Assembly (NCBI RefSeq): GCF_004025325.1 | Contig: NZ_RSFE01000005.1 | Location: 1-64,000, forward strand | Direction: 5' to 3' | Origin: Pseudidiomarina gelatinasegens | GTDB taxonomy: Bacteria > Pseudomonadota > Gammaproteobacteria > Enterobacterales > Alteromonadaceae | DNA length: 64,000 nt | In this document: in pieces, positions 5,417-27,514 of the stretch | Layout: every line of letters starts with the position of its first letter | Numbering within the stretch: position 1 is the stretch's first letter | Notes under the pieces: generated by a model | What the model was told of the DNA's origin: nothing | The model's input: the letters and a program-made list of their open reading frames with translations, nothing else | Databases searched by the model: none | Translations under genes and position numbers: made by a program

Positions 5417-6756
5417 GCTCGTTGCTCCCTTAGGCGCCAGCCGTACACTAAAAAGCACAGCAACAGCCCAGCTGCAAAGGCCCAAGTAGCACCTTTCACC
5501 ACCAAAATGGCAGCAATCACCCCAGCAATCCCTAAATCACGCTCGGAGCGTGCTTCTTGAATGCCAATACGCACGCTCACATAGCCTTGAATAAGCAGAG
5601 TGAGCGCTAAAGCGATCCCCAAAATCGGCTGCACCAAACTCACCACCGGCAACAACAACAAGCCGGTATTGGTGCCCCAACGAAATGAGCCGGCGCCACC
5701 AAAAATCGAGTCCATCGCTTGCCGCCCCTTTTTGAAGCGCTCCACAATCACCACATGCATGGCCGCCCACAAGGGTCCGCACATAGTCACATCGGGTCCG
5801 ATCACGCTCATGCCGAGGTTACGCGCACCAAAGATTAAATGCGCACGATTAGGGTCGTAATCAATTTTCTCATCTTGGCGCACCTCGTCTGCTTCATCCA
5901 AGATAGCCTTGCTTTGCAACACATCACCAAACAACACAATGTACGCCGCAAGCACCGTCGGAATCGCACTCAAGTACATACTCCAAGGCGGAAAACCCAC
6001 TCCGAACAAGGTGTACTGACTAAACATGGTGGCAAAATCAGGCGAGGTAAAACCCCACTCCAACTGCGGCCAAGGCGCTTCTGAAAACAGCGGGGCCAGC
6101 ACAATCGCCAAGGCAATAATCGGGAAAATACCTAGCTTACCTAACGCCGCAAACACCCAATGACGATCTTGCAAGGCCGCAAAATGCTTAGAAAAGATCA
6201 GATAAAAGGCAATACCCACCGCAATAGAAATGGTAAATGGATAACTTTCAAAGCGCCCGCCATCGTCAAACACCACAGCAACCGCTGCTAGCCCAGCCCC
6301 CATAATAATGCCGGCTTTGATGGCGCTAGGTATCAACTGCACTACCCGCTTAGCAGCGCCCGAGGCGCCCAGCAAAATAGCAAACAACCCCAGCAACATC
6401 TGAAACGCAATCAATGCATGCACCCGCGCCTCACCTTCCGGGAACATCGACACATACATCATCAGTAACGGAATCGCTGGGGTTATCCACCCAGGGACCA
6501 CAGGATCACCAAGCAAATGGTGCAGTAAATAAAACAAACCATTGAGCACCACAATCGCTAACGCCGCCTCGAACGGCATGCCCAGCAGTTCGGTCATTAA
6601 CGAGATGGCGGCAAGATCAACCGCACACATCAACAGCCCTTGAAAATAGTCCGGCCATTCAAAGCGATAATGCACAAACGGCAACCGCACTTTAAACGGA
6701 CCCAGGGCAAAAAACGGTGCTTCAGCGCCGCTAACGCGTTGTTTCCATAACGACAT
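5413..6756 (-). CDS. Multi-pass permease of the catabolic operon
   Basis: 447 residues with roughly a dozen hydrophobic segments, so an inner-membrane transporter. The sequence layout (LIPSAIKAGIIMGAG in the middle, GPDVTMCGPLW towards the second half) resembles the NCS2/SulP-like permease fold, but I cannot assign a characterised substrate. ATG 6756 is preceded by AAGGAG that overlaps the stop region of the alcohol dehydrogenase; a longer upstream frame exists but has no ribosome site. Its stop overlaps the regulator start. Because it lies between the dehydrogenase and regulator genes, it most likely imports the compound that these enzymes oxidise. Confidence 0.7.
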   Translation of the reverse strand: MSLWKQRVSGAEAPFFALGPFKVRLPFVHYRFEWPDYFQGLLMCAVDLAAISLMTELLGMPFEAALAIVVLNGLFYLLHHLLGDPVVPGWITPAIPLLMMYVSMFPEGEARVHALIAFQMLLGLFAILLGASGAAKRVVQLIPSAIKAGIIMGAGLAAVAVVFDDGGRFESYPFTISIAVGIAFYLIFSKHFAALQDRHWVFAALGKLGIFPIIALAIVLAPLFSEAPWPQLEWGFTSPDFATMFSQYTLFGVGFPPWSMYLSAIPTVLAAYIVLFGDVLQSKAILDEADEVRQDEKIDYDPNRAHLIFGARNLGMSVIGPDVTMCGPLWAAMHVVIVERFKKGRQAMDSIFGGAGSFRWGTNTGLLLLPVVSLVQPILGIALALTLLIQGYVSVRIGIQEARSERDLGIAGVIAAILVVKGATWAFAAGLLLCFLVYGWRLREQRA

Positions 6757-6766
6757 CAGAGGCTCC

Positions 6767-7930
6767 TTAGTAGGCTTCGCGATAAATGGCTTCGATATCT
6801 TGCACCGAGAGCTCGCGTGGATTATTGCGCAATAGCCGAGTGACCCCACTTGCGGCTTCCGCAAGCTCAGGTAAGGCCGACTCAGGGATGTCAAACTCGC
6901 GCAGTTGCGCCGGAATATTGACCGCCGCACACAACACCTGCATTTGCTGTAAGACATAATCCCCAGCCGCTTCTACGCTGATACTATCGGCCGCACCAAA
7001 AGCTTTGGCTAATTCGACAAAGCGCTCAGGACAAGCCGCTTGGTTCCAACGCATCACTGGCACCAACATCACCGCATTGCTCATACCGTGTGACAAATGA
7101 TAACGGCCTCCTAGCGGGTACGCCAAAGCATGAACAGCACCCACCCCAGCGTTACCAAAAGCCAGCCCAGCCATCAAACTGGCGGTGGCCATTTCTTCGC
7201 GGGCGACCATGTTGTCAGGCTCTTGATAAGCCTGCACCAAACTGGCTTTGATTTTACGGATAGCCGCCAACGAATAGGGCTCGGTTAACGCCGTCGCAAA
7301 TCTTGAAAGGTAACTTTCTACGGCATGCACCAACGCATCAATACCGCTGGCCGCAGTAACACCTGGCGGACAGCTCAGCGTGAGCTCTGGCGCCACAATG
7401 GCCACATCAGGCAACATCTCATTACTCACAATGCCCTTTTTTAACTGGGCTTGGGTGTCAGCCAAAATAGAAATGTTGGTGACTTCTGAGCCGGTACCTG
7501 CGGTAGTAGGTAAACAAATCAGCGGATATTGCCGAGGTTTCACTTGGTCTTCACCGAACAGCTCCGCTAACGGGCGCGTATCACCAGCGTAAACCGCCAC
7601 GGCCTTGGCCGTATCCATGGCACTACCGCCACCAATCGCCACAATGCCATCGCAACCTTCTGCCACAAACAGCTCGCGACAGGCTTCAACCACCGCCATC
7701 TCAGGTTCAGCAGAAATCGCATCAAAGACAGTCACTTGATGCACACCAGCTTGGTTTAACTGGGCGGTAACCGTAGCGATAATGCCCGCCTCACTCACCC
7801 CGCGATCACTCACCAATAACGGGCGCTGCATAGCAAGCAGTTGCATCTCGTGCGCCAACTGATGACTAGCATGGGCGCCAGTTAGCAACCGTCGAGCGGT
7901 TTTAAAGGTTTGAACCGTTGAAGTACTCAT
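6767..7930 (-). CDS. Iron-containing alcohol dehydrogenase (4-hydroxybutyrate-type)
   Basis: 387 residues, normal for group III iron alcohol dehydrogenases. Visible are the nucleotide motif GGGSAMDTAK, the GTGSEVTN loop and the metal ligands in GIDALVHAVESY and HALAYPLGGRYHLSHG (Asp and three His). It would oxidise a primary alcohol or hydroxy-acid with NAD, giving the aldehyde used by the dehydrogenase at 2602-4044. Start 7930 follows GAGGAAG; a 70-codon upstream extension has no such site and is low-complexity. It is the first gene of the leftward operon and has a sigma-54 promoter at 8001-8018. Pairing with a semialdehyde dehydrogenase suggests 4-hydroxybutyrate as substrate; that is inference. 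Confidence 0.85.
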   Translation of the reverse strand: MSTSTVQTFKTARRLLTGAHASHQLAHEMQLLAMQRPLLVSDRGVSEAGIIATVTAQLNQAGVHQVTVFDAISAEPEMAVVEACRELFVAEGCDGIVAIGGGSAMDTAKAVAVYAGDTRPLAELFGEDQVKPRQYPLICLPTTAGTGSEVTNISILADTQAQLKKGIVSNEMLPDVAIVAPELTLSCPPGVTAASGIDALVHAVESYLSRFATALTEPYSLAAIRKIKASLVQAYQEPDNMVAREEMATASLMAGLAFGNAGVGAVHALAYPLGGRYHLSHGMSNAVMLVPVMRWNQAACPERFVELAKAFGAADSISVEAAGDYVLQQMQVLCAAVNIPAQLREFDIPESALPELAEAASGVTRLLRNNPRELSVQDIEAIYREAY

Positions 7931-8000
7931 GATCTTCCTCTCGTTGTTCTTGTTCTTATTATTGGCGTTCGATAGTCGGTACCTTGGATGACAAACATAG

Positions 8001-8018
8001 ATGCAAACGACGTACCAA
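8001..8018 (-). promoter_or_regulatory. Sigma-54 promoter of the leftward catabolic operon
   Basis: On the minus strand the site reads TTGGTACGTCGTTTGCAT, matching the -24/-12 consensus (TGGCAC-N5-TTGCA) with GG and GC separated by exactly 10 bases and one substitution (T for C). It lies about 70 bases upstream of the alcohol dehydrogenase start and about 75 bp from the enhancer palindromes. Confidence 0.7.
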
Positions 8019-8090
8019 CTTTTACAATATTTATAACACCATGTTTTTAAATGCTTTTTTGTTTCAAGCCTAAGAGTCTCGCCCATCTTG

Positions 8091-13341: not shown

Positions 13342-15984
13342 CTACTCGGCCCGCGCCAACTCCCGTGCAAGGAACGGAGCGGTTCGGCTGCCAGACTTTC
13401 GGGCCACCTGCTGAGGGGAACCCGCCACCACGATGCTGCCGCCGGCAGCGCCCGCGCCTGGCCCTACGTCGATCACCCAGTCGGCTTGGGCCACCGCACG
13501 CATGTCGTGCTCGATCATCACTACGGTATTACCGGCATCGACCAGGCGCTGCAACTGCACCAGCAGCCGGTCGGCATCCGACGCGTGCAGCCCGGTGGTC
13601 GGCTCGTCGAGCACGTACAGGCTTCGGCCGCGCTGGCTGCGCTGAAGCTCGGTCGCCAGCTTGATGCGCTGCGCCTCGCCACCGGAAAGCTCAGTGGCCG
13701 GTTGCCCCAGGCGCAGATAGCCCAGTCCGATGTCGCGCAGCAGTTGCAGGGGCCTTGCCACCGCGTCTTCACCCGCGAAGAATTCGCTGGCCTCGTCCAC
13801 GGTCATCTGCAGCACCTCGGCGATGTTGCGCCCGTACCACTGCACCTTCAGCGTGGCCTCGTTGTAGCGCGCGCCATGGCAGGTCGGGCACGGCGCGTAC
13901 ACGCTAGGCATGAACAGCAGTTCCACGCTAACGAAACCTTCGCCCTCGCAAGTCTCGCAGCGCCCCTTGGCGACGTTGAACGAGAACCGTCCGGCATCAT
14001 AGCGGCGGCGTCGAGCATCGGGCGTGGCGGCGAACAGCTTGCGCACATGGTCGAACAGACCCGTGTAGGTAGCCAGGTTCGACCGCGGCGTGCGCCCGAT
14101 CGGCTTCTGGTCCACCTGCACCAGGCGCTGTATGGCGTCCACGTCGCCCGCCAGATGGCCGCCGGTCGCTTCGACCACTGCCGGCCCTTCGCTGGTGGCG
14201 CTTTCGGCGGCATCGTCTTCAGGCTCGTGGCCCAGGTGCAGCAGCACCAATTCCGGCAGGGCCTGCGCGATGAGGCTGGATTTGCCGGAGCCAGAGATGC
14301 CGGTAACGGCTGTCAGCACGCCCAGCGGAATGCGCGCATCCACGCCATGCAGGTTATGGCGGTGGATGCCCTGCAGCTCCAACCAGCCGGTCGCTTCGCG
14401 TGCTCGGCTTCCGGGTGCGGGAATTTCGTCAAACAGGTAACGTGCAGTACGCGATTCGGCAATCTTGCGCAGGCCATCCGGCTCGCCGCTGTAGAGCACG
14501 TGGCCGCCACGCTCCCCGGCCTCCGGCCCGACATCCACGAGCCATTGCGCGCGGCGCATTAGGTCCAGGTCGTGCTCCACCACAAACACCGAGTTGCCCG
14601 CGTCGCGCAGCCGGTCGAGTGCATCGTACAGGGCCTGGCTGTCGGAGGGATGCAGGCCCGCCGAGGGTTCGTCGAGTACGTACACGACGCCGAACAGCAG
14701 GGAACTTAATTGCGTGGCCAGCCGCAAGCGTTGCAACTCGCCGGCCGAAAGCGTCGGCGTGGCCCGGTCCAGCGTCAGGTAGCCCAGACCTAGCTCGCGC
14801 AGTTGGCGCAGGCGCGCCATCACGCCTACAGCCAGGCGCTGTGCGGCGAGGCGCTTTTCTTCCGACAGCGCGGAGGTATGGCACACGTCGGGCGATACCG
14901 CATGGACGGTGGCAGCGCGTTCGGCACGCTCGCGCCGGGTCGCTCCCTTGTCTGTAGCCGCACCCGCTGCATGGGCGCGGAAATCGCCCTGTGCGATGGG
15001 TTCGAGCAATGCCGCCAAGTGGTCCAGCGGCATCTGCATAAACGCGCCGATGTCCACCCCAGCGAAGGTGACCGACAGCGCTTCGGGCTTGAGCCTCTTG
15101 CCGTGGCAGGTAGGGCACGGTTTGCCCTCCATGAACCGGGATACGCGCTTTCTCATCAGCGCGCTCTGGGTATTGGCGAAGGTGTGCAACACATACCGCC
15201 GGGCGCCGGTGAAGGTGCCCATGTAGCTCGGCTCCATCTTGCGTTTGAGCGCGGAGCGGGTTTCGGCAGGCGTGAAACCGGCGTACACCGGCACCGTTGG
15301 TGTTTCCTCGGTGAACAGAATCCAGTCGCGATCCTTTTTCGGCAGGTCCTTCCACGGCCGGTCAACATCGTAGCCCATGCTGACCAGGATGTCGCGTAGG
15401 TTCTGGCCCTGCCAGGCGGGTGGCCAGGAAGCAATCGCCCGCTCACGGATGCTCAGGGAGGGGTCGGGCACCATGTTCGCCTCGGTCACCTCGTACACAT
15501 GACCCAAGCCGTGGCAGGTCGGGCACGCCCCCTGCGGCGTGTTCGGCGAAAAATCCTCGGCGTACAGCATCGGCTGGTTGGCGGGATAGGCGCCGGCGCG
15601 CGAATACATCATCCGCACCAGGCTGGACAGGGTGGTCACACTGCCCACGGAGGAACGCGCATTGCTGGACCCCCGCTGCTGCTGCAGCGCCACCGCTGGT
15701 GGCAGGCCGTCGATCGCATCTACGTCCGGCACGCCCGCCTGGTCGATCAGGCGCCGTGCATAGGGGGCCACCGACTCAAAGTAGCGTCGCTGCGCCTCGG
15801 CATAGATGGTGCCGAAGGCCAGCGAGGACTTCCCGGAGCCGGAGACACCCGAGAACACCACCAGCGCATTCCGCGGGATAGAGACGTCCACCTCTTTGAG
15901 GTTGTTCTCACGCGCGCCACGCACCTGCACGAGGCCGCTGGCCGCAGCGGTACAAGAGGATTCACCGAAAGAATTGCTTGGCAT
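13342..15984 (-). CDS. UvrA2-like ABC ATPase (excinuclease subunit A paralogue)
   Basis: 880 residues with two ABC modules. Walker A sites are SGVSGSGKSSLAF (N-terminal) and TGISGSGKSSLI (middle); signature motifs are LSAGELQRLRLATQ and LSGGEAQRIKLATELQ. Zinc-binding CxxC pairs CPTCHG and CETCEG are present, as in UvrA. The N-terminal part is shorter than housekeeping UvrA, which fits class II UvrA (UvrA2/DrrC-like) proteins linked to tolerance of DNA-damaging drugs. ATG 15984 opens with MPSNSFGESS, the start module shared with the genes at 17875 and 27383; the UvrA homology begins only later at VQVRGARENNLKEV. It follows the nhaA stop by 25 bases and is probably co-transcribed. GC-rich compared with the right half of the window. 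Confidence 0.85.
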   Translation of the reverse strand: MPSNSFGESSCTAAASGLVQVRGARENNLKEVDVSIPRNALVVFSGVSGSGKSSLAFGTIYAEAQRRYFESVAPYARRLIDQAGVPDVDAIDGLPPAVALQQQRGSSNARSSVGSVTTLSSLVRMMYSRAGAYPANQPMLYAEDFSPNTPQGACPTCHGLGHVYEVTEANMVPDPSLSIRERAIASWPPAWQGQNLRDILVSMGYDVDRPWKDLPKKDRDWILFTEETPTVPVYAGFTPAETRSALKRKMEPSYMGTFTGARRYVLHTFANTQSALMRKRVSRFMEGKPCPTCHGKRLKPEALSVTFAGVDIGAFMQMPLDHLAALLEPIAQGDFRAHAAGAATDKGATRRERAERAATVHAVSPDVCHTSALSEEKRLAAQRLAVGVMARLRQLRELGLGYLTLDRATPTLSAGELQRLRLATQLSSLLFGVVYVLDEPSAGLHPSDSQALYDALDRLRDAGNSVFVVEHDLDLMRRAQWLVDVGPEAGERGGHVLYSGEPDGLRKIAESRTARYLFDEIPAPGSRAREATGWLELQGIHRHNLHGVDARIPLGVLTAVTGISGSGKSSLIAQALPELVLLHLGHEPEDDAAESATSEGPAVVEATGGHLAGDVDAIQRLVQVDQKPIGRTPRSNLATYTGLFDHVRKLFAATPDARRRRYDAGRFSFNVAKGRCETCEGEGFVSVELLFMPSVYAPCPTCHGARYNEATLKVQWYGRNIAEVLQMTVDEASEFFAGEDAVARPLQLLRDIGLGYLRLGQPATELSGGEAQRIKLATELQRSQRGRSLYVLDEPTTGLHASDADRLLVQLQRLVDAGNTVVMIEHDMRAVAQADWVIDVGPGAGAAGGSIVVAGSPQQVARKSGSRTAPFLARELARAE

Positions 15985-16001
15985 GTTCTTATCCTGTAGT
16001 T
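15956..16001 (-). repeat. Start module, copy A (before the UvrA2 gene)
   Basis: A 46-bp block read leftward: AACTACAGGATAAG, a few bases, ATG, then nine to ten codons for MPSNSFGESS. It recurs at 17847-17892 before the NhaA fusion (coding MPASSFGESS) and partly at 27381-27416. The block carries the ribosome binding site (AGGATAAG) and the start codon, and the protein after it is unrelated in each case. Copies A and C remain identical slightly beyond the block, through the codons for SC. Confidence 0.8.
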
Positions 16002-16009
16002 CGCCCCAC

Positions 16010-17875
16010 TCAGGACGGGACTTCCTGAGTGCGAGGGCCGCGGCGACTGGCTTCGAGCACTGCGGTGAGAGTGCGGGCGTCGTAACTGCCGAGCAGACGA
16101 CGACCCTCGATGAAGAACGTAGGAGTGACGTGCGCACCGCTGGCGACCGCGCTGACGAGGTCACGCTCGACACGCTCTATCACTGCGGGACTGTCGAGAT
16201 CCGCGATGAACCGATCGATGTCAAGACCCAGCTCGGCGGCGTAGCCGATCAAGTCCTCTCGCTCCAGCGCATGCTGACGGGTGAACACGAAGTCCAGCCA
16301 CGGCCAGAACATCCCCTGGTTCGATGCCGCCTCGGACGCCCGCGCGGCGATCGGCCCGTGGGGGTGGTGCGGCAACTGGCGCACCACATACCGCAGGTCG
16401 TCCCCGAAGTGGGCGCGCAGATCGTCCCACGAACCGGTGGCGTGTGCACAGTACGCGCACTCGAAGTCAACGTACTCCACGAGCGTGAGCTGGGCGTCCT
16501 CCGGACCGCGGATGTGATCGACCTCCGGATCGACTGGTGGCTCAAGTACCATCGGCAAATCGGCAGTCTCCTCCCCCCACTTGAGAGCGGCGACCTTGAA
16601 TATGAGCCACCCCAGCAACGTGGCGAGTAACATCGACACGAGCACCCCGACCGTCGCCTGGCGGCCCAGGTCAGAGGTCGTACCGAACGCGAGCCCGATG
16701 ATGAGCAGCGACACGGTGAAACCGATCCCGGACAGCGCCGCACCACCGAACACGCTCCCCATCCCGACGCCCACCGGCAGGCGCCCCAGTCCGAGGCGGA
16801 CTGCGGCTAGAGTGATGAGCCCGATGCCTAGGAGCTTACCGAGCACGAGTCCCGAGATGACGCCCCAGGTCACGGGCGAGCCGAAGGCCTCAGCGAGCAA
16901 CCCGCCACGCAGATCCACCCCGGCGTTCGCCAAGGCGAACACCGGCACGATCAGCAGTGCCGCCGGCAGCCGCAGGAACTCGTGCAGCCGCTCGTTCACA
17001 GAGATACCGCGGGATAGTCCGCGGTCCACCGCGTGGGCCGATGCGGCACTCGGAGACTGCCAGAAGTCACGGAACAGTTGTCTTGCCGCGACGACTTTGT
17101 GACGCTGCGTCGCGTAGGCGGGGATCAGGAGCCCCGCAGCCATCCCGGCCAGGGAGGCATGGATGCCGGAGTACACGGTCGCGAACCACAGCACGATCAC
17201 GATCAACACATACGGCGTCGCCCGCCACTGCCGGGTGCGCCCCAACAACCACAATCCAACGAGGCTGGCGAGGGCGATAAGCAAGGGGACGATCCGGATC
17301 TCCTCGCTATAGACGATGCCGATGATGGACACTGCGAGGAAGTCATCGACCACGGTCAGGGTGAGCAGGAACACGCGCAACTGACCCGATAGCCGCGGGC
17401 CGACGATCGCCAAGGTGCCCAGCATGAACGCCGTATCGGTGCCGACCACCGCACCCCACCCGTGCAGGCCCTCACTTCCGGCTAGTTTCACGATCAGGAC
17501 ATACACCAGCGCGGGAAGCACGACACCCGTGACCCCCGCGATCAGGGCGAGGCGGGCACGGCTGCGGTCCCGGAGCGATCCGTGGGCGAACTCCTGACGC
17601 ACCTCCAGGCCGATCAGGAAGAAGAAGACGACCATCAGGCCGTCGTTGATCCAGTGATGCAGATCCATGTGTAGGCGCAGTGGCCCGAAGTTGAACCCGA
17701 CGTCTAGGTGCCACAACTCGAAATAGGCGTTGGATAGCGGCGAGTTCGCCCACACGAGCGCCACAACCGTGACGATCACCAGCAGCACCGCAGCGCCAGA
17801 CTCCGTGCGTAGATAGTGGGCAACGCGTCTGCGTCTGATATGCGCCGAGGATTCACCGAAAGAAGAGGCTGGCAT
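16010..17875 (-). CDS. nhaA: NhaA-type Na+/H+ antiporter fused to a DsbA-like thioredoxin domain
   Basis: 621 residues. Residues about 20-410 are an NhaA antiporter with eleven or twelve membrane segments (HHWINDGLMVVFFFLIGLEV, GTDTAFMLG and LTVVDDFLAVS, the paired Asp of the ion site). Residues about 430-610 form a DsbA/thioredoxin_4 domain with CAYC as the active motif and TPTFFIEG as the cis-Pro loop. This fusion is best known from actinobacteria. The protein begins MPASSFGESS from the shared start module. High GC suggests transfer. It would exchange Na+ for H+ at the inner membrane; the thioredoxin domain may sense or repair thiols. It lies directly upstream of the UvrA2-like gene. Confidence 0.85.
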   Translation of the reverse strand: MPASSFGESSAHIRRRRVAHYLRTESGAAVLLVIVTVVALVWANSPLSNAYFELWHLDVGFNFGPLRLHMDLHHWINDGLMVVFFFLIGLEVRQEFAHGSLRDRSRARLALIAGVTGVVLPALVYVLIVKLAGSEGLHGWGAVVGTDTAFMLGTLAIVGPRLSGQLRVFLLTLTVVDDFLAVSIIGIVYSEEIRIVPLLIALASLVGLWLLGRTRQWRATPYVLIVIVLWFATVYSGIHASLAGMAAGLLIPAYATQRHKVVAARQLFRDFWQSPSAASAHAVDRGLSRGISVNERLHEFLRLPAALLIVPVFALANAGVDLRGGLLAEAFGSPVTWGVISGLVLGKLLGIGLITLAAVRLGLGRLPVGVGMGSVFGGAALSGIGFTVSLLIIGLAFGTTSDLGRQATVGVLVSMLLATLLGWLIFKVAALKWGEETADLPMVLEPPVDPEVDHIRGPEDAQLTLVEYVDFECAYCAHATGSWDDLRAHFGDDLRYVVRQLPHHPHGPIAARASEAASNQGMFWPWLDFVFTRQHALEREDLIGYAAELGLDIDRFIADLDSPAVIERVERDLVSAVASGAHVTPTFFIEGRRLLGSYDARTLTAVLEASRRGPRTQEVPS

Positions 17876-17892
17876 GTGCTTATCCTGTAGTT
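17847..17892 (-). repeat. Start module, copy B (before the NhaA fusion)
   Basis: This has the same architecture as 15956-16001: AACTACAGGATAAG, then ATG at 17875 and codons for MPASSFGESS. It differs from copy A in a handful of bases within codons 3-5, but the ribosome site and the block TTCTTTCGGTGAATCCTC are unchanged. Upstream (17893-18009) lies GC-rich sequence without a recognisable gene. Confidence 0.8.
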
Positions 17893-18009
17893 TGTGAGAT
17901 CACGATGGGCCGGTTTCGGATGGACCGATCAGGCGTCCGCCTCTGGCGGCGTCTCATCATCGAGCGAACGCAGCCAAGCGAGTCTTTCTCCCAGCCCCAT
18001 AATTGCTGG

Positions 18010-18999
18010 TCAGACAGTTACCACGATCTTGCCGATCTGCTGATTGGCTTCAAGGAAACGATGGGCATCCTGGATGTCGCTAAGTGTGAATGTCTTTGCG
18101 ATGATCGGGCGCAACGCACCGGACTTCAACCCTTGCAGAATAAAAGCCTTCGCTCTCTCCAGGGCTTCAGGGTCGGCCACAATCTCTGCGTAGAGATAAC
18201 CCTTCAAAGTCAGACTTTTGCCCAGCACGGTAAACAGTGGGAATGGTGTCGATTCAGAGCTAAGCGCGCCGTACACCAGCAAAATTCCGCCCCGAGCCAT
18301 GCTCTGCGTGAGAGGTTCAAAGGACGGCCCGCCTACAGGATCGAATACAACGCGAGCGCCTTGACCGGCAGTTATCGTCATAACACGCTCGACGATATCG
18401 TCTTCATCGCTGACGATGACATGCGCAGCGCCTGCATCAAGTAGGGCTTGCTTCTTCGCGTGAGTTCGAGTGATCGCAATCGATGTGGCGCCGACCATTC
18501 GAGCTATTTGGAAGGCGGCCAAGCCAACACTGCTTGACGCGGCGGTAACGATGACAAAATCGCCCTGCCGTAGCTTCGCCTGTTCAATCAATGCTCCCCA
18601 GGCGGTGACGTACTGCATCCAAGACGCCGCAGCCTCTTCAAAGGACAAGTTCTCAGGGCTCTTTACCACCAGGTGGGCCGGTACATTGGCCAACTCGCCG
18701 TAGGTGCCCCAGCGAGCAATATCCAGAGGTGGGATCAGAGCGACCGAGTCACCAATAGTGATCTCGGTTACGTCGCTCCCGACTGCCGTTACGACGCCTG
18801 CGGCCTCGTAGCCTAAGCGGCTGGGGAACTCCGCTTCTTGTAGGTATGCGTGATTGCGGAACATCACTTCGGCTCGGTTCAAGCCAAGAGCTTTAACACT
18901 AATCTGCACCTCGTTTGCTGCTGGTGCCGATACTTCCAGATCTTCCAGCTTCAGAACGCTGGCGTCACCGTATTCATGAATTCTGACAATGCGTGCCAT
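18010..18999 (-). CDS. Zinc-independent quinone-oxidoreductase-like MDR enzyme
   Basis: 329 residues, the usual length of the quinone oxidoreductase branch of the MDR superfamily. The N-terminal GroES-like part lacks the catalytic and structural zinc Cys clusters of alcohol dehydrogenases. The Rossmann part has VTAASSSVGLAAFQIA in place of the usual glycine-rich NADPH loop. Likely reaction: NADPH-dependent reduction of quinones or enals in the cytoplasm. It lies at the left end of a run of oxidoreductases (LLM, old yellow enzyme, SDR, FrmA) that together suggest defence against electrophiles. Start 18999 gives MARIVRIHEYG, a standard N-terminus for the family. Confidence 0.8.
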   Translation of the reverse strand: MARIVRIHEYGDASVLKLEDLEVSAPAANEVQISVKALGLNRAEVMFRNHAYLQEAEFPSRLGYEAAGVVTAVGSDVTEITIGDSVALIPPLDIARWGTYGELANVPAHLVVKSPENLSFEEAAASWMQYVTAWGALIEQAKLRQGDFVIVTAASSSVGLAAFQIARMVGATSIAITRTHAKKQALLDAGAAHVIVSDEDDIVERVMTITAGQGARVVFDPVGGPSFEPLTQSMARGGILLVYGALSSESTPFPLFTVLGKSLTLKGYLYAEIVADPEALERAKAFILQGLKSGALRPIIAKTFTLSDIQDAHRFLEANQQIGKIVVTV

Positions 19000-19211
19000 A
19001 TAGATACCTCGTTTATCAATGGGCCTCGACGTACATCCGGAAGGTATCCGGGCACTCGAAAGGTAACAAAAATTTAGTCATTGGTTGGCGCTAAATAATG
19101 GCCTACGATGGCGTATTACTTGGCGGCTGTCAAAGCATGAAGACCTGTAGCCATAGCGCATCCTCCTGATGAGGGCTCAAGAATGCACCATGACTTCCTG
19201 GGTCTGCATAC

Positions 19212-19517
19212 CTAGATTCTTTCTTGCAGCGCCTTTAAGAAGGCGTCGATATTCTCATCGTGGCGTTTGTAGTAGGTCCAGGGGCCGATCCGCTGCGATG
19301 TCACCAATTGCGCGCGCTGTAGAGCGGCGAGATAAAGCGATGTCGTTGACTGAGAGAGGCCCGTGCGCTCTTGGATGATACTAACGCACACGCCTACCGT
19401 TTCTGGGTCGACCTCCTGCCCGGGAAAGGCTGTCCTGGGCTCCTTGAGCCAATTGAGGATGGTAAGGCGCATCGGGTTCGCCAATGCTTTCAGGGCTTCG
19501 TTGACGTCAATAGTCAT
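19212..19517 (-). CDS. ArsR-family winged-helix repressor
   Basis: 101 residues with the ArsR layout: ALANPMRLTILNWL (helix 1-2), GLSQSTTSLYLAALQRAQLV (HTH) and the wing GPWTYYKRHD. A single cysteine (GVCVS) precedes the HTH, which could allow thiol-based sensing as in other electrophile-responsive ArsR proteins; that is inference. It lies between the MDR gene and the LLM gene on the same strand and is a plausible regulator of this block. Confidence 0.8.
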   Translation of the reverse strand: MTIDVNEALKALANPMRLTILNWLKEPRTAFPGQEVDPETVGVCVSIIQERTGLSQSTTSLYLAALQRAQLVTSQRIGPWTYYKRHDENIDAFLKALQERI

Positions 19518-19650
19518 GAATTTTTTTACCTATTCTTCCGATATCTGGATATCTTCCTGATTCACGTGTCAAATTGCAAGGCTTCGCCATGATCTCCGCG
19601 CCTGCCCTTCGCAGTGATGGGCAGGCTTGGACTGGAATCCTATTGTCCTG

Positions 19651-20637
19651 TCAGGTAGGACTATCGGGCACCTGCGCGCCGCCGAATTTAGGGACGATAT
19701 GCTTGCCAAGCTCCTCGATAACCTCTGCTGCGGGGCGTTTACCATACTTGAGGTTCAGGATGACGTGATCTACACCGATTTCCTGAAGTGTATCCAGCAA
19801 GGCCAGAAGGTGGTTACGTCCCAGCCGGAATCCTAGATGGATAGGCGAGGGCGGCGTGGATGGGTTTTCGTCCAGGTCGATATACAGCGATTGCAAGAAC
19901 GGCTTGTAGATAGCGCCACATTGTTTAGCCGTTTCCTGTCGCCAATCTTCCACGATGAGTCGCTGTATTTTTGGCGGACGTGGATAGTTGATCCATCCAT
20001 GGCTTTCACGCGCGATCCAATCGAGCGACTGGCGGCTATGTCCGGTTACGAATAGCGGTATTTCCCGAGTCGTAGGTTTGGGAACGAGATCGGCCCCCAG
20101 TAACTCACCGTGACTCCAGCGAATGGGCTCGAAGTGTGTTCGATGGGCTTGGCGTATCACATTGAGGTTTTCTTGAAAGGTCTCGCCGCGCTGTTCTGGA
20201 TCAACGCTGAATGCGGGAAACTCCACGGGACGATCGCCAGAGGCTACTCCCAGGAGCAAGCGACCTCCGCTCAACTGATCAATGCTCGCTGCGGCCTTTG
20301 CCGTGTGCAAGGGATTACGCAAAGTAAGGGCGATGGAGGCGGTGCCTAGTGCGATTTTTGTTGTATGGGCTGCCATGTAGCCCAGATACACCCAAGGGTC
20401 GAAAACCTGGCCGACATCGCCGAAGCTTGGGTCCCTGAGCGGCACGTCGCGAAACCAGAGCGCCGAAAAACCAAGTGCCTCTGCACGTTTGGCCAGCGCG
20501 ACCTGATCCAGCATGCGCGGGGTGTCACCCTCGAAAGCCTCCAGGGGAAAGAACAGCCCAAGGCTTAGATGACCCTGCCTGAAGGTCTGTTTGAATCCCC
20601 TATGCTCTTGGTAGGGGATCGTGCTCGGTTGGTACAT
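19651..20637 (-). CDS. LLM-class flavin-dependent oxidoreductase
   Basis: 328 residues of the luciferase-like monooxygenase fold. Visible family stretches include LGLFFPLEAF at the start of the barrel, ALGTASIALTLRNPLHTAKAAASIDQ cut into family blocks around ASIDQLSGGRLLLGVASGDRP, and GVDHVILNL near the end. Such enzymes use FMN or F420 for oxidation of diverse small molecules. It is co-oriented with the old yellow enzyme gene upstream (gap about 66 bp to its stop). Substrate unknown. Confidence 0.75.
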   Translation of the reverse strand: MYQPSTIPYQEHRGFKQTFRQGHLSLGLFFPLEAFEGDTPRMLDQVALAKRAEALGFSALWFRDVPLRDPSFGDVGQVFDPWVYLGYMAAHTTKIALGTASIALTLRNPLHTAKAAASIDQLSGGRLLLGVASGDRPVEFPAFSVDPEQRGETFQENLNVIRQAHRTHFEPIRWSHGELLGADLVPKPTTREIPLFVTGHSRQSLDWIARESHGWINYPRPPKIQRLIVEDWRQETAKQCGAIYKPFLQSLYIDLDENPSTPPSPIHLGFRLGRNHLLALLDTLQEIGVDHVILNLKYGKRPAAEVIEELGKHIVPKFGGAQVPDSPT

Positions 20638-20703
20638 GCTTAACTTCCTCGGTCAGCAAACGCTGAGTCACGCCCCTGAGTTATGGGGCGTGGCTCTGAG
20701 CGC

Positions 20704-21828
20704 TTAGGGTTTGTAAGTAGCGTAGTCGGTGTAGCCCTTATCGGTACCGCCGTACATGCTGCTTGGATCAAGTGGGTTAAGCGGCCAGTTGTTGGCGATA
20801 CGAGCGGGCAGGTCGGGGTTCGCAATGAAGGGGCGACCAAAAGCGATCAGGTCGCCCCAGCCAGCTTTTATCACGCGATTTGCTCGCTCAGCGGTGTACT
20901 TACCGGCATAGATAATCTTGCCGCTGAAAGTCTTACGAACAGCTTCTCGGAACGTCTCAGGCAGCTCGGGTGCGTTTTCCCAATCGGCTTCGGCGAGCGA
21001 CAGGTAGGCAATGCCCACTTCCTCGAGGATCTTCACTGCCTCGATGTAGGTTTGGTGAGGATCTTCTTCGACCAGGCCAAGGTAAACGCGGTCTTCGTCT
21101 GTGGTCGCGAACAGCGGAGCGAAGCGAACGCCAACGCGCTCCTTGCCGACGACACCAGCAACGGCGAGTGTGATTTCGCGCAGGAAACGAAGACGATTTT
21201 GCAGCGAACCGCCATATTCATCATCACGCTGGTTGGTATGGGCCGAAATGAACTGGTTTACCAGGTACCCGTTCGCGCAGTGAAGCTCCACCCCGTCAAA
21301 ACCTGCTTCCAGAGCATTTCGGGCTGCTTGGGCGTAGAGCTCAACCAGTTCCTTTACCTCCTTGGTGGACAGGGCTCGTGGGGTCGATGGGTCGGCCAGT
21401 GTACCCGTGCCGGGGCCGGTTTCGATGAACACTTTGACGTTGTCCGCGCGGATGGCTGATGGCGCGATGGGCGCTTCACCACCGAGTTGCAGCGATGTGT
21501 GCGACACGCGGCCCACATGCCAAAGTTGAGCAAAGATCACCCCCCCTTCGGCGTGAACAGCGTCGGTGACCTTACGCCAGCCTTGTATCTGTTCCGGGCT
21601 ATGAATGCCGGGTGTCCAGGCATAACCCTGTCCTCGGGGTTCGATCTGTGTGCCCTCGGTCACCATGAAGCCAGCACCGCTGCGCTGACGGTAATAGGTG
21701 GCCATTAGGTCGTTCGCAATATTGCCGGTTTGGGAGCTGCGCGAACGCGTCAGTGGCGGCAGAACGATACAGTTCTTGAGGGTGTATGGGCCCAGCTGAG
21801 TGGTTTTAAAAAGTTCTGAGTGTGTCAT
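20704..21828 (-). CDS. Old yellow enzyme (NemA-like ene-reductase)
   Basis: About 374 residues of the NADH:flavin oxidoreductase/N-ethylmaleimide reductase family. Key features are VLPPLTRSRS at the FMN site, the substrate pair in ELHCANGYLVNQF (His and Asn), the barrel segment RVGVRFAPLF and GRPFIANPDLPARI near the end. It reduces activated C=C bonds of electrophiles such as maleimides, quinones and enals using NADPH and FMN. Start 21828 (MTHSELF) is preferred over 21843 because AGG lies about 10 bases before it. It belongs with the LLM, MDR and SDR enzymes around it. Confidence 0.85.
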   Translation of the reverse strand: MTHSELFKTTQLGPYTLKNCIVLPPLTRSRSSQTGNIANDLMATYYRQRSGAGFMVTEGTQIEPRGQGYAWTPGIHSPEQIQGWRKVTDAVHAEGGVIFAQLWHVGRVSHTSLQLGGEAPIAPSAIRADNVKVFIETGPGTGTLADPSTPRALSTKEVKELVELYAQAARNALEAGFDGVELHCANGYLVNQFISAHTNQRDDEYGGSLQNRLRFLREITLAVAGVVGKERVGVRFAPLFATTDEDRVYLGLVEEDPHQTYIEAVKILEEVGIAYLSLAEADWENAPELPETFREAVRKTFSGKIIYAGKYTAERANRVIKAGWGDLIAFGRPFIANPDLPARIANNWPLNPLDPSSMYGGTDKGYTDYATYKP

Positions 21829-21882
21829 TTCATTTACCTGCATATCTAAAATATTCGATGCTATAAGTCAAAAAAACATGGA

Positions 21883-22059
21883 TCAACGAGCTCTGAAGAG
21901 CCCGAGCGGTGCTTCGTTGAGGCTAACGTCGATGTTCTTCTTCTGCCTGTAGGCTTCCAGCATTGAGTTGTGAGTTTCCCGTCTTAGGCCAGATTTCTTA
22001 TCGCCACCAAAGGGGACATGGGCAGAGATCTCATGGTAGGTATCGCCGGAATCTTTCAT
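21883..22059 (-). pseudogene. C-terminal fragment of an aldehyde dehydrogenase
   Basis: 58 residues containing YHEISAHVPFGGDKKSG, HNSMLEAYRQKKN and APLGLF, the extreme C-terminus of an ExaC/AldB-type aldehyde dehydrogenase. The catalytic and cofactor domains are gone. Oddly, the remaining frame begins at an ATG with a perfect AGGAGG seven bases upstream, so the fragment could be translated. Either the deletion joined an upstream ribosome site to this tail, or a small peptide is being kept. I favour a decayed gene. Confidence 0.7.
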
Positions 22060-22240
22060 GGGGGTACCTCCTAAGGTTTCTCGCACGGGTTATGAGCTAA
22101 TATTATTTGCAATATATAAATATGTCAATATGTCGCTATCATTTTCCGGCACGTATGCATATTTCCACGCCCTTGCAGCTCACTTCTGGATCAGCTGGGA
22201 ACGCGCCGTGCTTCGCGCCAGGGTTGTCTATGAGTCTCTG

Positions 22241-22269
22241 GCTATTTCCCCAGGCCCTGGGGAAATAGC
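22241..22269. terminator. Perfect hairpin at the lysR 3' end
   Basis: Arms GCTATTTCCCCAG (22241-22253) and CTGGGGAAATAGC (22257-22269) are perfectly complementary with a 3-base loop. The hairpin contains the last codons and the stop of the lysR gene. There is no long T run, so termination efficiency is uncertain, but its place between lysR and the aldehyde dehydrogenase remnant fits. Confidence 0.5.
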
Positions 22270-23156
22270 TTGGGGTTTGAGAAAGCCTGCTTAAGGTGGT
22301 CGTACACCAATCGCACCCGCTTCGATACAGGACCCTGCTGCGGGCGGTATATGAACAGATCCCATGGCGCTGGAGCGAGATCAGCCAAAACAGCAACCAG
22401 CTTTCCTGACCGCAGATGAGGCTCAGCCAGATAGGCAGGAATTTGACCAAAACACATGCCTGCCAGGATGGCTTCCAATTCCGTATCTGGATCATCACAG
22501 ATAAGCGCTGGCTGCCCGGGCGTGAACGTTTGCCCGTCGGCAAATAGCCAAGGCCAAGGGCGGCCATTTTTCCGGTCGATCAGGACTGAAAGTGGCAGCT
22601 TAGCTAAGGCATCCAAAGATTCAGGTGGTGTCTTTTGGCCTATGAGAGACGGGGACGCGACAACGTAAAACGGCACGGGAGCTAAGGCACGTGCAACGTA
22701 GCGCCGGTCGCGAATACCCCCCACCCTGATACCAATATCGATATGCGCCTCAACAGCATCAGTCATCTGATCTTCCAAGCGGAGATCGAATTGCAGGTCA
22801 GGATGTGCAGCGGCCAGAGGCTGAAGAAACGGTATTAGGAAGCGCCTGCCAATAGCATGTGGAGCCGTAATCCCCACCCTACCTGACAGCTCAGGCTTCG
22901 TCCTGTGCGAACGGAATAGCGTATCGAAATGATCCAGAGCTGACCTGGCATCTTTGGCGTAATCCTGACCGAAAGCAGTGATGCTCACCTTGCGGGTATT
23001 GCGGTGGAACAGTGATTCGCCAAGCTCAGTTTCCAGGGCTTGAATGGCTCGAGTCACCCCTTGTGGGGAGATGCCTAATCGAGTTGCCGCTTCGCGGAAG
23101 CTACCAGCCTCTGCTGCTGTGCAAAAAATCCTGACCATCTCCATGCGATTAAGCAT
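22242..23156 (-). CDS. LysR-family transcriptional regulator
   Basis: 304 residues: an N-terminal winged HTH (AAEAGSFREAATRLGISPQG, within the first 40) and an effector-binding domain of two lobes. ATG 23156 (MLNRMEMVRIF) follows GGGAGGGG and is the family-typical start; the longer frame has no such site. It is divergent from the SDR gene at 23301, about 145 bp away, so it probably controls that gene. The last residues are encoded in a terminator-like hairpin. Confidence 0.85.
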   Translation of the reverse strand: MLNRMEMVRIFCTAAEAGSFREAATRLGISPQGVTRAIQALETELGESLFHRNTRKVSITAFGQDYAKDARSALDHFDTLFRSHRTKPELSGRVGITAPHAIGRRFLIPFLQPLAAAHPDLQFDLRLEDQMTDAVEAHIDIGIRVGGIRDRRYVARALAPVPFYVVASPSLIGQKTPPESLDALAKLPLSVLIDRKNGRPWPWLFADGQTFTPGQPALICDDPDTELEAILAGMCFGQIPAYLAEPHLRSGKLVAVLADLAPAPWDLFIYRPQQGPVSKRVRLVYDHLKQAFSNPKLFPQGLGK

Positions 23157-23300
23157 GTTGCCCCTCCCATTTATTCCATTTTCAGGAATAGCATAATCCA
23201 ATTAATTTCATTTATTGAGATAAATTATGGGTCTATAGTATACACACTGCCAGGTTAACCAACCATGGCGAAGTATAAAACCACCGATGAGGTTCTTAGC

Positions 23301-24044
23301 ATGAGCAATAACATTTCTGGAAAAGTTGTCGTTATCACCGGTGCCAGCAGCGGCCTGGGTGAGGCTACTGCACGCCACCTTGCTGCGCTTGGCGCTCGCG
23401 TAGTGCTGGCTGCACGCCGCAAAGATAAACTCGACGCATTGGTGGCTGAGCTGACCAATGCAGGTGGTCAGGCAATCGCGTATCAGACCGATGTCACCTC
23501 TCAGGAAGAGGTCAAAACACTCATTCAAGGTGCCGTGGACACCTACGGTCGCATTGATGTACTGATCAATAATGCCGGACTGATGGCGATTGCACCGCTC
23601 AGCGATACTCGCACTGACGAGTGGGATCGCATGATCGATATCAACATCAAGGGTCTGCTGTACGGAGTCGCGGCTGCATTGCCAGTCTTCCAGAAACAAA
23701 ACAGTGGTCACTTCATCAACATCGCATCGGTTGCAGGCCTGAAGGTGTTCAGCCCGGGTGGCACCGTGTACAGCGGCACCAAGTTTGCTGTGCGGGCTAT
23801 CTCCGAAGGACTGCGTCACGAAGTCGGTGGCAGCATCCGCACCACGACTATCGAGCCGGGCGCCGTGGACTCCGAACTGAAATTCGGCAGCACCCACCAA
23901 CAGAGCCGCGATTTCGTGGTGGATTTCTACAAGCATGCAATTCCCGCCGAATCGGTCGCTCGAGCTATCGCCTTCGCAATTGAGCAGCCTGCTGACGTGG
24001 ATATTAACGAGATCGTTCTGCGCCCAACCGTGCAGGAATTCTAA
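23301..24044 (+). CDS. Short-chain dehydrogenase/reductase
   Basis: 247 residues, classical SDR. The NAD(P) loop GASSGLGEA is at about 14-22, the NNAG motif at about 88, the active-site Ser in NIASVAG, and Tyr/Lys in YSGTK (about 156-160). It reduces a carbonyl or oxidises an alcohol in the cytoplasm. ATG 23301 is selected over 23265 because GAGG lies 8 bases before it and [14 protein letters not shown] is the usual N-terminus. It is transcribed divergently from the lysR gene, and a hairpin follows its stop. Confidence 0.85.
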
Positions 24045-24052
24045 TGAGTTGA

Positions 24053-24078
24053 GGGCCTGTCTCTTCGGCGTCAGGCCC
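24053..24078. terminator. Hairpin after the SDR gene
   Basis: GGGCCTG (24053-24059) pairs with CAGGCCC (24072-24078) a few bases after the SDR stop codon. No T tract follows, so it may be a weak terminator or an RNA-stabilising stem. Confidence 0.4.
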
Positions 24079-24104
24079 CGCTTATCTGGAGTGAAAAGCG
24101 GTGG

Positions 24105-24317
24105 GTGCCACATGCCCCGGAAGAAAAGAAGCAAGCGCTCGATGCAGGTGCTGAATGCCCTGCAATTCTTCAGCAGCTTGCGGCTGTTCGTAGAGCTGTC
24201 AACAGATTGAAGGCAACGGTTCTGGAGAGCTATCTACGGGAAGAGTTTCCCAGGAGCGATTCGCAGAACAAGTCCATTGACGAGACCATCTCCATCGTCC
24301 GCTCCTACCTGCGGTAG
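24105..24317 (+). CDS. frmR: FrmR-like formaldehyde repressor with an internal deletion
   Basis: 70 residues from GTG 24105, which keeps the proline-2 start (MPHAPEEKKQAL) of the FrmR/RcnR family. Family members have about 91 residues. Here about 20 are missing between KKQAL and DAGAEC, in frame. The missing part is the first-helix segment rich in arginine (RVRRIRGQ in FrmR), which contacts DNA. The sensing cysteine (AECPAILQQ) and the C-terminal helices through IVRSYLR remain. FrmR represses frmA until formaldehyde links Pro2 to the Cys. Without the arginine helix this protein should not bind its operator, so the frmA gene 59 bp downstream may be constitutive. Identity is firm; loss of function is inferred. 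Confidence 0.75.
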   Translation: MPHAPEEKKQALDAGAECPAILQQLAAVRRAVNRLKATVLESYLREEFPRSDSQNKSIDETISIVRSYLR

Positions 24318-24352
24318 AGGCACCAGGGTGCCCTCGGTGAGGGAAAATTTAG

Positions 24353-25486
<1,134 letters not shown>

Positions 25487-25529
25487 CAGCCCACTACCCA
25501 TTCAACACCAACCACCAAGGAAATTAATC

Positions 25530-25928
25530 ATGTCCACTCCTGTCATTTCTGGCGATGACATCTTTTCGCACATCTTTATCGGCGCTGCCGACCTTCAGAA
25601 GTCGGTCGCGTTCTACGACGCCGCTCTGGGTGCTCTTGGCATCAAGAACCTCGGTCCTTTCAACAACGGATGGGTACTTTTCGGTCGCGAAAAGCCGGCT
25701 TTCATCATCGCCCGCCCGGGCAATGGTGAAGCGCCTTCCAGCAACGGCGTGACGATCGGCTTTGCGGCCGCCACTCCCGCTGAAGTGGATGCCTTCCACG
25801 CCGCCGGCCTTGCCGCAGGCGGCACTGACGAGGGCCAACCTGGCGCACGTGGTCACCTGCCGGGTGCCTATGCGGCCTACCTGCGTGATCCGGCGGGCAA
25901 CAAGGTCTGCTCGTACACCTTCGTCTGA
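25530..25928 (+). CDS. VOC-family (glyoxalase/dioxygenase fold) protein
   Basis: 132 residues with the vicinal-oxygen-chelate layout: HIFIGAADLQKSVAFYDAALG at the start of the first module and YAAYLRDPAGNKVCSY at the end of the second, ending with the typical DPxGNK element. It starts 43 bp after frmA with AAGGAA before the ATG. Such genes often accompany frmA in formaldehyde-resistance operons. The reaction is unknown; possibly a glutathione adduct is handled. Confidence 0.8.
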   Translation: MSTPVISGDDIFSHIFIGAADLQKSVAFYDAALGALGIKNLGPFNNGWVLFGREKPAFIIARPGNGEAPSSNGVTIGFAAATPAEVDAFHAAGLAAGGTDEGQPGARGHLPGAYAAYLRDPAGNKVCSYTFV

Positions 25929-26022
25929 AAGCAAGGAAGCTGAGAGCGTTCTGACAGGGTCAGCACAAGCCTCTATTATACGGCGAGCCTGTTAGACGGA
26001 CCGTGTAGCGCGGTGCCTGCTC

Positions 26023-27324
26023 ATGAAGATCGGCCCGACCGCCACCGTGTACGGCATGCCGGCCTATGCCGATCGTGCTGCAGCCGTGGGTGAAGTGCAT
26101 GCGCGCCCGCATCTGTTGCTTCAGGTCCCCCGCGGTATATTGCAGCTCTCTTTCATGACCGAAGGCGACCAGGCCAGGGATCAGATGGCGATGAGCGAGT
26201 TATCTCATCGCTTCGGCGTTGCCGAGCCCGACCACGCTACGCCGCTACACGGCGTGACATGGGATGAGGGAGACCTTCACTGTGAAAAGCACACCGAGTT
26301 CTCTACGTATCTCTGGTGCGCTTCGCTGGATTCCAAGACGGGAGAGCCTTGCGGAGAAAATCCCTTCAAACATGGATTTGTTCCTCCGGGCCTGGTCGTA
26401 TCCGGCATCCGCTTGAGACTTCTTCCGTGGATGCCAGAAACGGAGAAGGAGGCTGATCGCTTCGATCCTGCCAGCCTGTGCTACTCGCTGGTAGAGAACG
26501 GCTCTGCCGCCATCTTGACCGACTTCCGACAGGATGAGGATGGCCTGACGCAGATCCTCATCCTTGCTCGTGATTTGACCCCGGCGCGAGCAGGTGCGCT
26601 GGCTCAACGTCTATTGGAGATCGAGACGTACCGTACCTTGGCGTTGCTGTCTCTGCCGTTGACGCGATCGATGACGTCGGAGCTGCGACGCATGGAGTCG
26701 CGCCTTGCTGCGATCACTGACGAGATGTGTACGAATTTGGTAGAACGCCGCGATAGCGACGTGCTGCTTTCCGAATTGACAGGTCTGGCCGCCGAACTGG
26801 AAGCTGGCGTCGCGGCAAATCTCTATCGCTTCGGCGCCAGCCGTGCCTACTACGAGATCGTCGAGGAAAGGCTGGCTGCGCTTTCAGAAGTGGCCGTATC
26901 CGGATACAGCACCTGGGCGGATTTCCTGCAGCGTCGCATCGCTCCAGCCATGCGGACGTGCCAATCCGTAAAGGAGCGCCAGGCCAAGCTCTCCGACAAA
27001 CTGACCCGAGCCATCGCGTTGCTGCGTTCGTGGATCGACGTCGAACTTGAACGCCAGAACCGCGATCTGCTGGCTTCGATGAATAACCGGGCCAAGTTGC
27101 AATTGCGCCTTCAGCAAACCGTCGAAGGCCTGTCGGTCGCGGCAATTTCTTATTACGTCGTGAGTCTTCTCGGCTACCTGCTCAAGGGCATTCCGCTCGT
27201 TCACGACAGAGTGGCGCAGGTGATGGCGGTTCTGGTACCTGCGGTGATGCTGACGATCTGGTGGATCGTCCGCAGGATAAGACACGCCCACAGCGACAAG
27301 GCGGCGGAAGAGAAACCTTCCTGA
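26023..27324 (+). CDS. DUF3422-family membrane-anchored protein
   Basis: 433 residues. The N-terminal block YADRAAAVGEVHARPHLLLQVPR and the central helical part match the DUF3422 family; the C-terminus has two hydrophobic segments (SYYVVSLLGYLLKGIPL and AVLVPAVMLTIWWIV) followed by a basic tail, so the bulk is cytosolic and anchored to the membrane. Function unknown. It follows the VOC gene by 94 bp and precedes the third start module. The long central helices suggest oligomerisation. Confidence 0.8.
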   Translation: MKIGPTATVYGMPAYADRAAAVGEVHARPHLLLQVPRGILQLSFMTEGDQARDQMAMSELSHRFGVAEPDHATPLHGVTWDEGDLHCEKHTEFSTYLWCASLDSKTGEPCGENPFKHGFVPPGLVVSGIRLRLLPWMPETEKEADRFDPASLCYSLVENGSAAILTDFRQDEDGLTQILILARDLTPARAGALAQRLLEIETYRTLALLSLPLTRSMTSELRRMESRLAAITDEMCTNLVERRDSDVLLSELTGLAAELEAGVAANLYRFGASRAYYEIVEERLAALSEVAVSGYSTWADFLQRRIAPAMRTCQSVKERQAKLSDKLTRAIALLRSWIDVELERQNRDLLASMNNRAKLQLRLQQTVEGLSVAAISYYVVSLLGYLLKGIPLVHDRVAQVMAVLVPAVMLTIWWIVRRIRHAHSDKAAEEKPS

Positions 27325-27380
27325 CGAGCTGCCGTCCTGGCACGCGATAGCTGCGCCGTCCGTTTGAACAGAGAAGAACA

Positions 27381-27416
27381 ACATGCCAAGCAATTCTTTC
27401 GGTGAATCCTCTTGTA
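27381..27416 (+). repeat. Start module, copy C
   Basis: 36 bp identical to part of copy A: from ACATGCCAAG through TTCGGTGAATCCTCTTGTA. It lies on the opposite strand to copies A and B, so the cargo between 15956 and 27416 is bounded by inverted copies A/B and C of the same block. Confidence 0.75.
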
Positions 27417-27514
27417 TCGATGTTGGGTCAGAGCTTCAACGATACGGGCTTGCTCTTATAGATCAATGGGTTAGCGCGAAATGGCAACAGACCCTAGCAA
27501 ACCAGTTCAAATAA
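27383..27514 (+). CDS. 43-aa ORF behind the third start module
   Basis: ATG 27383 opens MPSNSFGESSC, identical at codon level to the start of the UvrA2-like gene, then continues into SELQRYGLALIDQWVSAKW and stops at 27512-27514. Upstream only ACAACATG is shared, because the AACTACAGGATAAG part is missing here. I do not recognise the 30-residue tail. It could be the remains of the gene from which the module originates, or a real small protein. Translation is unproven. Confidence 0.4.
   Translation: MPSNSFGESSCIDVGSELQRYGLALIDQWVSAKWQQTLANQFK

Follow-up and report, generated by a model that had tools for sequence, protein, structure and literature searches.

Formaldehyde-resistance genes have been described together with uvr genes on ICEs. 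According to the published description, variable region VR4 of ICEPni1, an ICEclc-like element of Pseudomonas nitroreducens HBP-1, contains genes for FrmA, FrmB, a replication-associated recombination protein A and UvrA (PMC7466150), and a hospital ICE common to Pseudomonas aeruginosa and Serratia marcescens is described as carrying formaldehyde resistance and Uvr genes (PMC7156236). The island analysed here resembles the former in its FrmA, FrmB, recombination protein and UvrA genes and the latter in combining formaldehyde resistance with Uvr genes. NhaA, however, is unnamed in the account of VR4, the main text of which does not contain the terms "duplication", "start codon", "in-frame" or "N-terminal" (PMC7466150), and "nhaA" is likewise absent from the main text on the hospital ICE, whose passages on these genes do not discuss gene starts (PMC7156236). 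A literature search on start-site capture found no matching paper, and one on NhaA, DsbA, UvrA and islands returned nothing on this arrangement in the partial texts covered.

The window, that is, the whole stretch of 64,000 nucleotides of Pseudidiomarina gelatinasegens DNA, contains a rearranged formaldehyde-resistance region. On the plus strand, frmR, adhC, a VOC gene and a DUF3422 gene are followed by a short start-like sequence, copy C, and the minus strand carries the tail of rarA, then nhaA and uvrA. On plasmid p1 of Aeromonas caviae the genes run in one line as frmR, adhC, VOC, DUF3422, fghA, oxidoreductase, rarA, nhaA and uvrA. The VR4-like set of frmR, adhC, DUF3422, rarA and uvrA occurs together in the window, rarA being present as a tail, and no match to fghA was found there. 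This is an island of a known kind, similar to VR4 of ICEPni1. With respect to ICE integration at tRNA-Gly, the window shows no tRNA gene. A scan of viral contigs for the start module gave 2 stretches, and in tblastn at 1e-10 none of the seven island proteins used matched either of them.

The original prediction was that a single start module with its ribosome site precedes three unrelated reading frames in the window. A start region shared at the nucleotide level was confirmed before uvrA (copy A), nhaA-dsbA (copy B) and a 43-aa ORF (copy C), far beyond chance. A 30-base start word, ATGCCAAGCAATTCTTTCGGTGAATCCTCT, is exact at 15955-15984 (minus strand) and 27383-27412 (plus strand) and gave 0 matches in 100 shuffles, and a 17-base core of the block is exact at all three sites, where 0.11 would be expected; with up to one mismatch, the whole 2.47-Mb genome has these three places only. 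By word, core and block comparison, copy A (15956..16001, minus strand) spans the ribosome site of uvrA together with its ATG and opening codons. Copy B (17847..17892, minus strand), in which 41 of 46 bases equal those of copy A, is a duplicated uvrA ribosome site with codons 1-10 that serves as the start of nhaA. As predicted, the two share an additional stretch upstream of the ATG, CTACAGGATAAG, which is exact before these copies only. Copy C (27383..27416, plus strand), recognised by the exact word and by comparison with A, consists of the first 34 nt of uvrA; over these, counted from the ATG and ending at 27416 with the Cys-11 codon plus one base, A and C are identical, in agreement with the claim that they match through that codon. 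The peptide MPSNSFGESS is not common to all copies, since copy B reads MPASSFGESS. The module residues were correctly placed outside the UvrA and NhaA domains, as Na_H_antiport_1 begins at residue 20 in the copy B protein and no listed Pfam match in the UvrA of the window starts before residue 22. Rfam gave no match at the gathering score.

The native owner of the module is uvrA, a UvrA2-like gene of 880 aa from the module ATG (13342..15984, minus strand; Pfam UvrA_DNA-bind and ABC_tran), as its relatives have this start, or a clear variant of it, with no nhaA upstream. Module-type uvrA starts lacking an upstream nhaA were found in L008, L071 (MPDHSFDRSS), L103, L104 (MSNNPFGESS) and L109 (MPNPSYGESS). 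Of these, L104 is the wider stretch around L085, and L103 and L104 were reached via L084 and L085, which came from a scan with some match in 87 of 398 genomes. When the fixed module residues, eight in all, were scored in 59 UvrA loci, 41 had at least 5 of 8; the remaining 18 were 14 actinomycete loci and four more distant proteobacterial ones (L072-L075). The module is also present at the UvrA N-terminus outside the island, in L071 and L104. Copy A is the native start, and uvrA genes of this lineage usually begin with the module. The possibility that the block is a normal N-terminus of UvrA2 and NhaA proteins away from mobile DNA is therefore half borne out, holding for the uvrA lineage, L071 and L104 included, but not for NhaA in general. 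Separately, L110 has around position 3507 (minus strand) a uvrA start fragment, MSNNPFGESS, whose frame meets stop codons; the uvrA of that contig lies about 18 kb away. In two genomes, second uvrA copies (L106, 5539-8240, and L108, 5594-7692) have another left context; they start within the final bases of nhaA and adjoin the inverted repeat CTCAGGA...TCCTGAG, one arm of which differs in L108.

The gene behind copy B is an nhaA-dsbA fusion of actinomycete type with a 5′ end from uvrA (16010..17875, minus strand), assigned from Pfam matches to Na_H_antiport_1 and Thioredoxin_4 and from its position in a tree. NhaA starts were scored at 66 loci, namely 60 distinct loci from the genome scan and six plasmid loci, and the module was present at all 42 proteobacterial starts and at none of the 24 actinomycete ones. 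The actinomycete loci L060 and L061, with matches running from residues 1 and 2, scored 1 and 2 of 8, and the module was absent by eye. The module as a normal NhaA N-terminus was rejected on this absence from all the actinomycete loci scored. A midpoint-rooted NhaA tree built from 47 distinct rows places the 29 from proteobacteria in a single clade (100/100) apart from the actinomycete rows, which gives the inserted gene a foreign phylogeny. Copy B is a true and old in-frame 5′ chimera on mobile DNA, apparently made once. Transfer probably ran from actinomycetes to proteobacteria, given the wider spread of nhaA among actinomycetes in this midpoint-rooted tree. In several actinomycetes (L010, L041, L042, L052, L058 and L069), nhaA-dsbA lies near the host's own uvrA in either order, an arrangement that may be relevant to how nhaA and uvrA came together. 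The match to nhaA on Pseudomonas aeruginosa plasmid pBJ86 (L009, 16314-18172) falls into two pieces, which suggests a broken frame.

The extent of the captured start was measured by comparing the uvrA and nhaA starts in 40 loci carrying both, which represent 23 distinct pairs, the window included. Identity averaged 0.33 at positions -60 to -21, 0.86 at -19 to -1 and 0.81 in codons 1-10, and was down to 0.25 in the ten codons after these, placing the join of the uvrA start to nhaA at codon 10. The module might have been kept on nhaA for a function, as a translation start or an N-terminal tag of operon members, perhaps a stress-responsive one, and the ribosome site and frame of copy B are indeed kept in all 40 of these loci. 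Retention of a start site is expected anyway, however, and codons 1-10 of copy B exist as 8 alleles that include changes at the amino-acid level (SLGESS and SFGASS, for example). The module is also absent from adhC, VOC, DUF3422, fghA, oxidoreductase and rarA of L006 and L008, and we consider a functional tag quite improbable.

Insertion of a gene into an operon with duplication of the flanking DNA is of a general kind, recognised by a foreign gene lying within a direct repeat of the receiving junction. The present locus shows the same direct repeat of the receiving junction and has gene-less relatives; it differs in that the duplicated flank also provides a start codon and about ten codons. 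In L017 and L063, the 164 bp before nhaA (5864-6027) recur as 161 bp before uvrA (7884-8044), and the repeat contains the 3′ end of rarA, the spacer, the ribosome site and codons 1-9. These loci represent one lineage, since their NhaA, UvrA and RarA are identical, and the long repeat of about 160 bp is known from them only. In the window the repeat flanking the inserted gene is the 46-bp block, and the nhaA-uvrA gap of L006, L013, L014, L026 and the window keeps only about the last 19 spacer bases. The receiving junction is found free of nhaA in L109 and L008, where rarA is followed directly by uvrA. In Comamonas sp. C11, uvrA lies directly after rarA. The repeat in L017 and L063 and the A/B identity profile together indicate that nhaA acquired the uvrA start by entering a duplication of the rarA-uvrA junction. 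In the window, a rarA 3′ remnant survives at 17929..17995 (minus strand), of which 17992-17995 (GCTG) is common to the alcohol dehydrogenase flank; at 17990-17996 the two meet at this GCTG in a manner like the trace of a small deletion.

The direct repeats on both sides of nhaA could also allow the gene to pop out and back by homologous recombination, in which case nhaA-less loci such as L008 would be excision products. In midpoint-rooted uvrA DNA trees, L017 falls outside L008 and the rest (91/88 and 96/100), and this place of L008 inside the nhaA-bearing loci speaks for loss of nhaA there. Against excision, L109 falls outside the nhaA-bearing loci in the midpoint-rooted uvrA tree, weakly (87/56), and has MPNP in common with L008; in the rarA tree L008 and L017 were unresolved after L109 was added. 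The position of L109 favours an nhaA-less ancestor, and L008 may either retain this condition or have returned to it by losing nhaA. Excision and re-entry seems possible but rather doubtful, and insertion into an nhaA-less junction is the reading we prefer.

Copy C is debris consisting of the fghA leader, the first uvrA codons and the end of an IS5-type element, that is, a uvrA stub and not a new gene. It is preceded by a DUF3422 gene (26023..27324, plus strand; Pfam), which by comparison with relatives has lost the usual first 15 codons, and by a leader (27325..27382, plus strand) matching the DUF3422-fghA spacer; upstream of about AACATG it has nothing evident in common with copy A. An ISPa67-related IS5-type end, identified by sequence match, follows at 27415..27494 (plus strand). 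The 43-aa ORF (27383..27514, plus strand) spans the stub and the IS end, has no Pfam family at E 0.001 and is probably not a gene. In L004, copy C is identical to the window uvrA for 45 nt, to codon 15, and L004, L009, L012, L016, L105 and L107 all show uvrA identity to codon 15 followed by ISPa67-like DNA. ISPa67 is annotated as IS5-type in LC735983.1, and its end and the first third of its transposase adjoin copy C in these relatives, but the element beside copy C is truncated, with about 80 bp remaining in the window. Compared with L004, the stretch from the ATG region to the IS end is 218 bp shorter in the window, and the apparent breakpoint at Cys-11 results from this secondary difference. 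An explanation of copy C as an IS91-type end effect was rejected because the flank is IS5-type.

An IS-free relative of copy C is present in L103, where DUF3422 and the fghA leader lead directly into uvrA by the same join; residues 1-290 and 296-880 of this uvrA were matched, and the frame is apparently broken between them. L103 and L004 are 99.2% identical over 5326 bp, from the stub to beyond frmR, and L103 likely represents a surviving pre-IS state of copy C. Past its alcohol dehydrogenase, the flank of L103 matches none of the other loci compared and hence includes no piece of rarA or nhaA. On this ground the idea that L103 is the window arrangement inverted between A and C was rejected. 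At 26003-26040 of the window, the 5′ end of DUF3422 is about 120 bp shorter than in L103, and the frame now opens with an ATG that used to lie in the spacer (MKIGP) and is joined in frame to the usual codon 16.

The most far-reaching part of the original prediction was the repeated in-frame replacement of gene 5′ ends at a fixed point, as by a mobile start module, cassette or recombination site near codons 9-11. The presence of three copies in a single window, each before a different frame, speaks for this idea, and copy B is a real in-frame 5′ replacement on mobile DNA. The repetition and the fixed point did not hold, however, as A is native, C is a stub and the breakpoints are not the same in every copy. 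Upstream, up to about 160 bp are common to copy B and its source, and C has no evident likeness before about AACATG; downstream, B stops at codon 10, C reaches codon 15 in L004 and the L103 join continues into uvrA. A plasmid search with the copy A block gave 13 places distributed over 8 records; the best one of each record is annotated as uvrA (5), nhaA (1) or nothing (2). At up to one mismatch, with rows at two mismatches set aside as chance, 91 places were found in 43 records, of which 45 are uvrA starts (including a fragment, in G742), 40 are nhaA starts and 6 are C stubs. These records are carriers of the island or of a module-bearing uvrA, L017 being left out, and the sample is biased to finds made with island proteins. 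In these 43 records the listing of what follows the block, which had been proposed as a check, returned only uvrA, nhaA or C stubs and no array of unrelated genes. With only three places in the genome as well, a mobile module is extremely improbable, and the different breakpoints of the three copies mean that no module-moving system is needed. The start block is seen three times because the window holds a native uvrA start, one old copy on nhaA and one dead scrap.

Taken as a whole, a native uvrA start, a single nhaA insertion with junction duplication and a separate decay to stub C account for the locus with a probability of roughly 85%. An actinomycete-type nhaA-dsbA would have entered a proteobacterial formaldehyde-resistance operon, apparently a single time, at the rarA-uvrA junction and duplicated this junction; through this duplication nhaA would have lost its own start and taken the uvrA ribosome site and about ten codons in frame. 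In most lineages the second copy of the junction would later have lost its rarA portion, leaving the repeat of about 46 bp seen in the window. In a separate rearrangement a uvrA start would have come to lie behind the fghA leader, and an IS5-type element and deletions would have cut this uvrA down to stub C. We infer the order of these events, the direction of transfer and the agent, ordinary homologous or illegitimate recombination, from the loci compared. Counting against the account are the occurrence of the long repeat in one lineage only (L017/L063), the place of L008 inside the nhaA-bearing loci, the midpoint roots and the fact that the duplicating event itself was not seen. That duplication of a resident start is an operon's route to a gene from another phylum, with the incomer's start replaced in one step by the ribosome site and opening codons of the resident and the leftover repeat keeping the insertion reversible, is an unlikely generalisation.

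The repeated gene start is explained without a new mobile system, by ordinary rearrangement in a mobile formaldehyde-resistance region. Present genomes hold nhaA-less junctions, the long repeat and the trimmed repeat, which are likely intermediate states. The remaining interest is modest and lies in a well-preserved start-site capture across phyla, a natural case in which an actinomycete-type gene has established itself in Pseudomonadota under a resident start site, within a region by which formaldehyde tolerance is spread.
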